NCBI RefSeq assembly: GCF_030758455.1
Contig: NZ_CP132353.1
Span: forward strand, 806,001-870,000
DNA length: 64,000 bases
Source of the DNA: Erwinia pyri
Lineage (GTDB): Bacteria > Pseudomonadota > Gammaproteobacteria > Enterobacterales > Enterobacteriaceae
Direction: 5' to 3'
Shown here: in pieces, positions 395-11,488 of the stretch
Position numbering within the stretch: the stretch's first letter is position 1
Layout of the letters: every line of letters begins with the position of its first letter
Made by a program: the position numbers and the translations under genes
Notes under the pieces: generated by a model
Database searches by the model: none
Told to the model about the DNA's origin: nothing
The model's input: the letters and a program-made list of their open reading frames with translations, nothing else

Positions 395-1068
395 TATTCC
401 TCCTGAATTTAAATTGAGCGATTAGCATTATTGAAATAACGTTTTATTTTTCATGTGTCAATCGGCGAGCGGCCAGAATGGGGGGAGGGGAGATAACGAC
501 AAACGCCGCTGCTTTTTAGCAAAATAGATAAGCCTCCTTTAAGTGAAAGATAAAAGTTGTGCTAATGAAAAAGAGCCTGTTTTTTCGCGTTATTCAACAA
601 TCTGTTAACGCTCATTTTTTGCAGAAAATGATAAATCAGACTTTTCATACGGATGGTGGTTTTTTGTACATTTTCAGGCGCCAATTCAAATCGATGATTT
701 TATGCCCACCCTTATTCCATAAGGCCTGAAGGGGGATTATCTGGAAAATACTTAAAAATCAATCTGATGATCTGATTTTCTAAATTCTCAATCTGTAAAA
801 TTATGTTACATTTTTTTATTTCCGCTAGCACATGTAACGTTTTTACACTCCTGCCTATAGGGCATTGTCCGAAAGGATGCAATTTCAGATAAACCCTTAA
901 AAATGAGGTGTCAGCTTGCTGGTGAATGGAATGTGCTCGCTTTTGACCCCGGCAGTAAGATTCGCGTTGGATAATGCGAACAGGGATATGTTTTGGCAGG
1001 GTAAGCCTTTCTTATTAATTTCTCACTGGCAATGACCGTTTCTATTACTCCATAGAACAGGGATAGCC
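395..1068. other. AT-rich intergenic stretch between divergent genes
   Basis: About 670 bases with no convincing coding frame. Much of it (roughly 480-860) is clearly richer in A and T than the flanking genes, with several T and A runs. It should hold the divergent promoters of the DJ-1 gene and the type VI remnant. I could not recognise a specific operator. The composition fits an old island promoter region, but that is inference. Confidence 0.5.
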
Positions 1069-1896
1069 ATGTCTAACTCCTATCAGTCCGAGATCCCCAA
1101 GGCCCGCGTTAACATCCAGTTAAGCCTGCACACGGGCGGTGCCCAGAAAAAAATCGAACTCCCCCTCAAGCTGATGGTGGTGGGGGATTACAGCAATGGT
1201 GCCGAGCAACGTCCGGTGTCGGAGCGTGAGACTGTCAGCATCAATAAAAACAACTTCGATAACATCTCACAGTCACTGCTGGGCCTGGTGGGGCTGGGTA
1301 TTCCCGGCACCGCTGAGCATATCCCCGCCCCGATGTCGCGCTTTCTGTCACTGCTTGGCGTGCTGCAGCAGCCCGGGAAAACTCAGGAGGGCATGCAGGC
1401 ATTGGTGAGCCTGCTGGCGCCTGACACCAGAGTGCAGGTCAGCCCGTACTGCCTGCGGCCGGTGGAGATCGGTAAACCACTGGGCTTTTACGGCGATGAA
1501 GATTTTCTGCTGGATGGCAACATGCCGCTTGGCGATGAAGCGATGGATGCCAACAGCCAGCTGCTGATTGGACTTTCCACCGATAACGAGCAGGAGACAC
1601 AGGGCTGGAAACCAGATGGTCTGCTGTATCAGGATTTTCTGGTCATGCTGAGGGTGTATCTGGGCTGGCGGTTTAAGGCAAAAATCACCCTGACCACCCG
1701 CACCTGCCTGCTGGCACTCCCTCCGTTGGGGGAGGGACCTTTCTGGCTCGGCATGAACGGTGTGCTGGGCGTCGAAGGCGATAACCTTCCGGATGATATT
1801 CCGCAAACATTTACCACTGAACTGGGTTACTACGCCGGGCTGGAGCCTGCGATACCACAACAAGGAAACCGACGTGTTACGTACAAGTTTGACTAA
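1069..1896 (+). CDS. Type VI secretion remnant: in-frame fusion of TssB N-terminus to TssG C-terminus
   Basis: The 275-residue product is a chimera. Residues 1 to about 64 match the start of TssB, the small contractile-sheath subunit: MSNSYQSEIPKARVNIQLSL, then the PLKLMVVGDY and INKNNF segments. From about residue 65 (NISQSLLGLVGLG) to the end it reads as the C-terminal two thirds of TssG, a baseplate wedge subunit, ending in the typical GNRRVTYKFD. The join is near base 1260. In related loci (EAEC/Pantoea type) tssB opens the cluster and tssG lies near its end. A single deletion therefore probably removed the rest of tssB, tssC, tssK, tssL, clpV, tssM, tssA, tssF and the start of tssG while keeping frame. 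The product cannot form a sheath or a normal baseplate, so it is best treated as a remnant although open. Confidence 0.8.
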   Translation: MSNSYQSEIPKARVNIQLSLHTGGAQKKIELPLKLMVVGDYSNGAEQRPVSERETVSINKNNFDNISQSLLGLVGLGIPGTAEHIPAPMSRFLSLLGVLQQPGKTQEGMQALVSLLAPDTRVQVSPYCLRPVEIGKPLGFYGDEDFLLDGNMPLGDEAMDANSQLLIGLSTDNEQETQGWKPDGLLYQDFLVMLRVYLGWRFKAKITLTTRTCLLALPPLGEGPFWLGMNGVLGVEGDNLPDDIPQTFTTELGYYAGLEPAIPQQGNRRVTYKFD

Positions 1897-2416
1897 ATCT
1901 GGGCGCTGGTTATTACCGCTGCTGGCTTTCAATCTGACGGGCTGCGGCCTGACTCAGAGCGTCAGCGACGGGACTAAATCGGCCTTTACCGCCGTATTTT
2001 ACAAGAAAATTAAGGAACTGCATCTGGACTTTACCGCCCGTGAGGCACTGAATACCGATTCCCGTGAAAGTAATTCGCTCTCCGAACCGTTGGTGGTAAG
2101 AGTTTACCAACTGAAAGATCGTAAAACGTTCGACAAAATGGTGTATCAGCAACTGTTGAAAGAGGGGGAGACGATCCTGAAAGCGGATCTGCTGGCGAGC
2201 CGTGATGTAATAGTCAAGCCGGGCGGTGATGCGAACCTTGATATGCCAATGGAGGCCGGTGCGCAGTTTGTCGCGGTGGTGGGGCTGTTCCGCTATCCGG
2301 ATATGATCAACAACACCTGGAAGCTGGTGGTAGAACGTGAAGAGCTGGACCCGGACAAGGCCAGAATTATTGAAGCGGGGAATAATCATCTGACACTGAT
2401 GCCAGTGAAGGAGTAA
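1874..2416 (+). CDS. tssJ: TssJ, type VI secretion outer-membrane lipoprotein
   Basis: 180-residue product beginning at GTG 1874, overlapping the end of the tssG part by 23 bases. AAGGA at 1862-1866 gives proper spacing, so I prefer this start to the longer frame that opens at 1760. The N-terminus has basic residues, a hydrophobic run and a lipobox LTGC, so the mature protein would be lipidated at Cys. The body carries the TssJ beta-sandwich pattern (PLVVRVYQLKD, FVAVVGLFRYPD, WKLVVERE). In an intact system TssJ anchors the TssM-TssL complex to the outer membrane. Neither partner is in this window, so the gene is probably orphaned. No inactivating mutation is visible. Confidence 0.85.
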   Translation: MLRTSLTKSGRWLLPLLAFNLTGCGLTQSVSDGTKSAFTAVFYKKIKELHLDFTAREALNTDSRESNSLSEPLVVRVYQLKDRKTFDKMVYQQLLKEGETILKADLLASRDVIVKPGGDANLDMPMEAGAQFVAVVGLFRYPDMINNTWKLVVEREELDPDKARIIEAGNNHLTLMPVKE

Positions 2417-2418
2417 TT

Positions 2419-2874
2419 ATGCCACAGTCACATCGCACCCCCTCGCTGTACGAGATGCTTTACGGTAACTTCACTGGCGGCCTCGATCTCCATCAGGTCA
2501 GCGAAGAAAACCAGGTGATCCTGTCCGTGCTGGACAACATGCAGCGCATCCTTAACTGCCGCGCCGGGACGCTGGCGCACCTGCCGGACTATGGGCTGCC
2601 GGATATGACCAAAATCTTGCAGGGCATGCCGGGAACTGCTCATCAGTTACTGGGCACGCTCTCAGCAGTTCTGCTCAAATATGAGCCCCGCCTGAACAGT
2701 ATTAAGGTGCTGCTGCTTGAACAAACTCAGCCCGGCGAGCTGCGCTATGCCATTGATGCTGAGCTGAAGGGACTTGGCCTTGTACGCTACGGCACGGAGT
2801 TTATGCCGGAAGGGCGGGTGTTGTTACGCCATCTCAGGCAGCAGCACTACCTTGGTAATGGCGCGAGAGTGTGA
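2419..2874 (+). CDS. tssE: TssE, type VI secretion baseplate protein (gp25-like)
   Basis: 151-residue protein starting two bases after the tssJ stop. The start MPQSHRTPSLYEMLYGNF, the middle segment ILNCRAGTLAHLPDYGLPDM and the C-terminal Glu-rich-to-basic pattern are those of the TssE/T4 gp25 lysozyme-like baseplate family, at normal length. TssE initiates sheath polymerisation together with TssF and TssG in a working system. The order tssG-tssJ-tssE matches the end of the enteroaggregative/Pantoea type of cluster. With the rest of the cluster lost from this site, it is probably non-functional unless a second type VI locus exists elsewhere in the genome. Confidence 0.85.
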   Translation: MPQSHRTPSLYEMLYGNFTGGLDLHQVSEENQVILSVLDNMQRILNCRAGTLAHLPDYGLPDMTKILQGMPGTAHQLLGTLSAVLLKYEPRLNSIKVLLLEQTQPGELRYAIDAELKGLGLVRYGTEFMPEGRVLLRHLRQQHYLGNGARV

Positions 2875-3109
2875 GCCACTTTATTATCCCGTGCAGAAAA
2901 CCAGATCCGTCCGGTAGCATGGCTCGAACTGCAGCCGGATATTCAGTACTGGCACCATCCAGGCGGCGTCGCCCGAACACAGAATGCATGGGTAACAGAG
3001 CTGAAAACCGGGGTGACTTTCTGATGTCAGCGTAGCAAGTACGATCCGGATCACGATTTTACTGGTGACGGATTGAGGCTGAGAATGAAACTGATAGAGT
3101 GCCAGAACT
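2875..3109 (+). other. Non-coding or decayed sequence between tssE and the bgl leader
   Basis: About 235 bases. One frame stays open for about 47 codons, starting near 2878 and ending in TGA at 3022-3024 (…ENQIRPVAWLELQPDIQYW…). It has no start codon with a ribosome binding site and I recognise no family. It may be the tail of a gene lost with the type VI deletion. The bgl promoter should also lie here, but I could not define its boxes. Confidence 0.3.
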
Positions 3110-4023
<914 letters not shown>

Positions 4024-4035
4024 GCCTCAAAAACT

Positions 4036-7427
<3,392 letters not shown>

Positions 7428-9211: not shown

Positions 9212-11488
<2,277 letters not shown>

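Follow-up and report, generated by a model that had tools for sequence, protein, structure and literature searches.

What became of a type VI secretion system (T6SS) that has left the beginning of tssB and the end of tssG in one open reading frame is the question raised by the locus at 1069..1896 of the window, by which the whole analyzed stretch of 64,000 nucleotides from Erwinia pyri is meant. The preliminary description took this frame for the mark of a collapsed T6SS cluster. The reading favored in the present study, to which a probability of about 0.82 is assigned, is that a recent deletion in such a cluster left the chimera behind as a scar without function. The features on which the argument draws are the following.

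614..1068, + strand: retained upstream region of tssB, about 74-75% identical across 462 bases to its counterpart in Erwinia sp. ErVv1 (G029) and in genome G028
1069..1896, + strand: in-frame tssB::tssG chimera, one open reading frame of 275 aa carrying both Pfam domains
1069..1263, + strand: tssB part, residues 1-65; 66 residues align to L062 TssB with 97% amino acid identity; match to PDB 3j9g_A
1258..1263, + strand: tssB/tssG join, with 2 to 6 bases common to both genes
1264..1896, + strand: tssG part, TssG residues from about 150-152 to 361, by TssG alignments and PDB TssG chains
1874..2416, + strand: intact tssJ (lipoprotein); PF12790, E 1.2e-26; TIGR03352 above cut-off
2419..2874, + strand: intact tssE (baseplate); PF04965, E 4.2e-11; TIGR03357 above cut-off
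2908..3024, + strand: last ~38 codons of a carbohydrate-porin-like gene, matching the C-terminus of the 452-aa ORF L155:9039-10397 in genome G031

The chimeric nature of the frame was borne out by independent matches to its two halves. Residues 7-66 corresponded to T6SS_VipA (PF05591; E 1.2e-18; profile positions 2-63 of 155) and residues 53-234 to T6SS_TssG (PF06996; E 1.7e-16; profile positions 123-304 of 304), both exceeding the Pfam gathering scores; in the PDB, the VipA chain 3j9g_A matched residues 7-68, and the TssG chains 6gj3_C, 6n38_G and 6giy_C matched residues 62-218. Separate alignment of the halves to the 79 loci kept after scanning public genomes gave, for residues 1-66, 97% identity to TssB of Erwinia sp. 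ErVv1 (L062), 95% to that of Biostraticola tofi (L064) and 94% to that of Pantoea brenneri (L063), and, for residues 64-275, up to 89% identity among the fetched loci to TssG of Kosakonia, Leclercia and others, so that the attribution of the first 65 residues to TssB stands. In the numbering of a 361-residue TssG (P0002), the retained C-terminal part starts near residue 150 and amounts to about 59% of the protein, not to the two thirds initially estimated; an alternative alignment starts it at 147, reaching slightly into the TssB part. The fusion is thus without the greater part of TssB and without TssG residues 1 to ~149, and neither TssB/VipA nor TssG was matched over a full-length profile in Pfam or NCBIfam. 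The score against the NCBIfam equivalog for TssB (TIGR03358) was 66.1 bits, below the cut-off of 97.25, and that against the equivalog for TssG (TIGR03347) was 65.3 bits, below 143.3. The warning that automatic annotation would label the frame as an ordinary T6SS protein thus holds for Pfam, which calls both domains, but not for the NCBIfam equivalogs of TssB and TssG, the cut-offs of which are not reached.

The position of the join, previously placed near base 1260, was confirmed by the borders of DNA homology. Of the 20 loci with an alignment to tssB, 17 have its end at 1256-1263 (in L077, L078 and L103 it lies earlier), and alignments to tssG begin at 1257-1274 in 75 of 77 loci (those of L051 and L092 begin later), some of these loci being one genome fetched twice. 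No element has been inserted between the two parts, as tssB homology runs up to or into tssG homology, and the two partial genes follow each other in native order and strand, the intact order being seen in relatives. The window carries GATAAC at this point, and the same six bases are present in tssB of L062. On the tssG side, the bases GA are invariant in the 63 rows examined, the next base is T in 12 rows and the following one is A in 50, with the exact GATA found in 4 of the 60 rows listed. The short repeat looked for at the join therefore exists as 2 to 6 shared bases, although only GA is common to all tssG copies examined: two bases are certain, at least four are shared with some tssG copies, and up to six are possible. 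Such a short match is weak evidence as a pointer to mechanism.

The intact arrangement in relatives suggests how the two halves came together. Among 15 genomes with a close tssG, tssB was located on the same contig and strand in eight (G435, G436, G439, G441, G442, G443, G444 and G446), on another contig in six and more than 300 kb away in one (G434). In the eight linked genomes, the distance between the two join points, obtained by hand arithmetic on coordinates, was 24.5-29.0 kb. With tssB and tssG on one strand at this spacing, one internal deletion accounts for the join. The two genes had been described as lying at opposite ends of the cluster, which has to be amended, since tssG is not the last gene in the relatives' clusters: tssJ and usually also tssE come after it, as they do in the window. 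In ErVv1 (G029), tssB-C-K-L stand at the start and F-G-J-E near the end, several gene names in this cluster being our own assignments, made in part from length and order.

The flanks of the chimera indicate that the cluster was also cut at its other side. On the 3' side, tssJ overlaps the chimera end, as in L001, and is followed by tssE in native order; tssJ has 58-86% identity to the copies in L001-L061. Past tssE, some 30 bases suffice for the homology to switch to the porin-like gene, of which the 3' end is present and which we take to be OprB-like, with DNA homology from about 2906. In G031, the 452-aa form of this gene precedes the same sugar operon, and the stretch from the porin end through the right neighbors, presumably licT, bglF and most of bglA, could be aligned as one piece in this genome only. 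On these homologies, the remnant was truncated a second time at its right end, where it runs into the porin-like gene. The 14.5 kb fetched from G031 around these right neighbors contained no match to the tss genes of the window. On the left side, the neighboring gene, presumably DJ-1/PfpI-like, stands apart from tss genes in all six stretches of 14-16 kb examined in relatives. The intact cluster that the preliminary description had sought at this same chromosomal site in close relatives was accordingly not found in the six left-side stretches and the right-side stretch of G031. No tRNA gene is present in the first 12 kb of the window. A direct repeat of ~37 bases (92%), at 3106-3141 and about 4032-4068, flanks the licT-like gene, its first copy preceding a terminator-like stem; we assume from their appearance that these repeats are antiterminator sites of a BglG/LicT-type sugar operon. 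On the 5' side, the segment at 614-1068 may be the old promoter region of the cluster, kept in place. A sigma-70 consensus scan of 400-3250 gave no more sites than shuffled sequences and no + strand site before the chimera.

The collapse of the T6SS was evident from the rest of the genome (4.76 Mb; completeness rating 100%), which contains no match for the sheath protein TssC (PF05943) or for TssK (PF05936), both of which a functional T6SS requires. Of the 37 genomes of the genus, 36 have TssC, the genome under study being the sole exception. A second T6SS locus with TssC or TssK is likewise lacking in this genome, although T6SS genes are not entirely absent from it. Three whole orphan hcp genes (contig C1, 1550754-1551161, 2885238-2885633 and 1790782-1791141) and a fragment (1657558-1657671) are present, scattered over the chromosome; a DUF1493 gene adjoins one of the three. 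The search for VgrG (PF05954) gave two matches, in open frames of 397 and 384 aa, lengths that we regard as typical of phage D proteins. Moreover, a partial T6SS-2-like locus (L162:3985-12971; C1 about 1909484-1918470) carries genes for DotU-OmpA, IcmF, FHA, a phosphatase and a kinase. Its IcmF is short, 707 aa, matching positions 1-627 of 1168 of TIGR03348 with the later part of the profile unmatched. This locus fits the partial, possibly non-functional T6SS-2 of Pantoea and Erwinia as far as the portions of the account available to us describe it (PMC3235180), and it is a locus separate from the scar.

The following course of events would explain these observations. The ancestor would have possessed a complete T6SS cluster with the layout tssB-C-K-L-(OmpA-like)-...-H-...-M-A-F-G-J-E, in which a single illegitimate recombination joined tssB at codon ~64 to tssG at codon ~150 through short stretches of matching sequence and took out about 25-29 kb; that the frame was kept would be chance, with odds of one in three. 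Everything after tssE, together with most of the neighboring porin-like gene, would have been lost by a further deletion or rearrangement. The preliminary description had attributed the loss of nearly the whole apparatus to a single deletion; an internal deletion does explain the join, but the second truncation and the lack of a sheath gene of any other T6SS mean that more than one event took place. With the upstream region kept, transcription of the chimera together with tssJ and tssE may persist; as the genome has neither TssC nor TssK, however, they could not be assembled into an injection machine.

An origin from two clusters, with tssB contributed by an ErVv1-like and tssG by a Kosakonia/Pantoea-like T6SS, has to be considered, as the genomes with the closest tssB (95-97%; ErVv1, G424, and B. 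tofi, G426) have a linked tssG only 42-43% identical to that of the window, and the eight linked genomes with a close tssG have a tssB of 56-74% identity, only 56-63% in five of them and at least 70% in three. Against this mosaic pattern stands the uneven similarity of the two cluster subtypes: they diverge in TssK, TssL and the OmpA-like protein but are nearly alike in TssB, TssC and TssH. In P. brenneri L063, a close tssB occurs together with tssK and tssL of the other subtype (TssB 90%, TssC 94-97%, TssK 53-60% and TssL 35% identical to those of ErVv1), its tssG not having been found in the search for a linked copy. Single clusters in which both halves are similar to the window also exist: in Silvania (G428), linked tssB and tssG, 26 kb apart, are 86% (over 66 residues) and 79% identical, and in Serratia inhibens (G436) and P. 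agglomerans (G441), tssB is 73-74% identical over residues 1-81 and tssG 86%. A deletion inside one cluster is preferred, and a two-cluster origin is considered unlikely. An error of assembly, for which nothing speaks beyond the join being known from one genome, is scarcely conceivable, as the join is situated within a contig of 4,523,022 bases, and no tssC or tssK occurs elsewhere in the assembly, as a real deletion would predict.

The state of the remaining parts also has to be considered, as an open frame with conserved tssJ and tssE would look alike if the parts were still used. The pN/pS values of the truncated tssG, tssJ and tssE of the window versus the 25 closest copies (0.153, 0.167 and 0.146) lie within the range of these copies among themselves (medians 0.151, 0.165 and 0.128), and the window has no private replacement at the 180 codons of the three genes that are invariant in the other copies (54 of 61 other tssG', 43 of 61 tssJ and 46 of 52 tssE rows used, those covering at most 95% of the gene or less than 74% identical being left out). 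Clear decay was thus not found by either comparison. These numbers, as well as the upstream region still present at 614-1068, could be taken to favor a chimera kept for a role, as a decoy, a dominant-negative part or a partner of tssJ and tssE outside secretion. However, recent loss and continued use give the same numbers and cannot be told apart by them, because the other copies also have a median of only 0 to 1 private changes at such codons; either the loss was recent or the remaining parts are still constrained, and if they have been neutral since then, divergence since the loss would be below about 0.8%. The mean pN of the window, for its part, is higher than in 17 of the 25 copies for tssG', in 21 for tssJ and in 18 for tssE, above the median in all three. 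The genome has no sheath or TssK to poison, and the collections searched yielded no second genome that shares the fusion. A retained role is therefore regarded as very improbable, the decoy or dominant-negative idea having no positive support, and a recent scar remains the preferred reading.

No relative was found in those collections to carry the identical fusion inside a working cluster, a finding that the preliminary description had named as one that would contradict it. Among the 37 genomes of the genus, an end-to-end match to the chimera was obtained in its own genome only, and none of 72,556 plasmid records covers 80% of it. A survey of E. coli, in which 1415 of 5426 genomes had a match and one place only covered 80% of the query, was uninformative on comparable fusions. 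Among the 62 TssG copies of at least 60% identity listed from a search of 392 genomes, 59 span residues 1-2 to 357-361, two have the front only (G086:C94, 1-269; G329, 1-227), and that of the window is the only one without its front, so such fusions are rare per genome. A motif filter was passed by 47 loci, three of them from the genome under study; of the other 44, two are short (L030 and L051).

Fusions of the same kind are nevertheless known. In the protein search with the chimera, none of the best 120 of 2137 matches covers more than 80% of the query, and nine of these 120 (7.5%) carry another T6SS-type domain besides TssG: TssB in one, TssC in four, TssA in two, TssK in one and AAA in one. 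With the C-terminal part of TssF as a control query, 11 of the best 120 matches (9.2%) were such proteins; in each search, the AAA or Clp domain of one match was taken as ClpV by interpretation. In-frame fusion through internal deletion is thus a general product of T6SS decay. The idea of TssG as a special hotspot gene for deletions was rejected at the whole-gene level, given the control count of 11/120 against 9/120, each among the best 120. One protein of 378 aa (P0001, from a 1783-base contig with the source tag lgn) likewise has a TssB N-terminus fused in frame to a TssG C-terminus; unlike that of the window, its join is at its own residue 88, corresponding to TssG residue 71, which makes it a separate event. 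Partial clusters occur as well. In an Enterobacter MAG (L030), tssB and tssC are whole and a truncated tssK is joined out of frame to a truncated tssG. Within the genus, G014 (L153) keeps a tssB fragment of 29 residues, with tssE, an ImpA-like gene and a fragment of tssF in its vicinity, and in L152 and L154 (G013) tssK is immediately preceded by a tssB with a broken frame, nothing in the stretch matching tssC. In G028 (C1:1168000-1220000; L142-L144), tssB, tssE and ImpA-like genes are 97-99.6% identical to those of ErVv1, but between tssB and tssE nothing matches TssC, K, L, M, F or G, a sheath gene being kept elsewhere in this genome. The kind of event therefore appears ordinary, other fusions and internal deletions being known, even if the same fusion was met nowhere else in the collections searched.

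Some fusion endpoints recur in the protein set, which consists of protein sequences only, some from short contigs. TssG Y140 is the entry point in four fusions, P0011, P0013, P0093 (TssC partner) and P0014 (TssF partner), which differ in partner or partner position, and the out-of-frame join of L030 (about 10000-10040) is within a few codons of it, resembling the stretch that codes for Y140 onwards. TssF Y321 is likewise the entry point in four proteins (P0137/P0159, P0145 and P0160), joined to TssK at two places and to VgrG, two of the four sharing one identical TssK site. Both positions are Tyr-Pro codon pairs; the fusion of the window, at TssG ~150, is about ten codons from Y140. That four of 14 fusions should fall on one codon over some 139 has a chance of roughly 4 in 10,000 by hand arithmetic, for a site chosen post hoc. 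It is rather doubtful that T6SS clusters have preferred deletion sites that repeatedly give in-frame fusions of core genes; if these sites were real, the course of T6SS loss would be predictable, and accident alone might not account for such fusions.

The locus provides a clean, apparently recent example of the loss of a costly weapon, in a genome that alone among the 37 sampled from its genus has no sheath gene. Scars of this type are counted as T6SS proteins by Pfam, and in-frame fusions at the frequencies given above among the best 120 matches are enough to mislead surveys that count single genes. Titles and abstract openings in the literature yielded no report of natural in-frame fusions of core T6SS genes, which is not proof of their absence. 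Internal deletions have been described: in Escherichia coli ST410, 21.0 kb were lost between rhsG and tssM within one T6SS cluster, and a second deletion removed 19.8 kb between tssD1 and tssA2 (PMC10711316). The rhsG-tssM remnants are, like those in the window, without a mobile element at the site, at least in the available portions of that report; different genes meet at the join, and those portions describe no in-frame fusion. A further parallel is offered by Enterobacter bugandensis E104107, in which, according to the parts of the publication that were accessible, one i2 cluster is reduced to tssB and a truncated tssC, another has lost the genes for baseplate and membrane components, and hcp is present as seven scattered copies (PMC10763514). 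That strain retains a complete i3 system, in contrast to the genome studied here, where no sheath gene was found; its i2 layout, tssBCKLDH with an OmpA-like gene, resembles that of the relatives' clusters.
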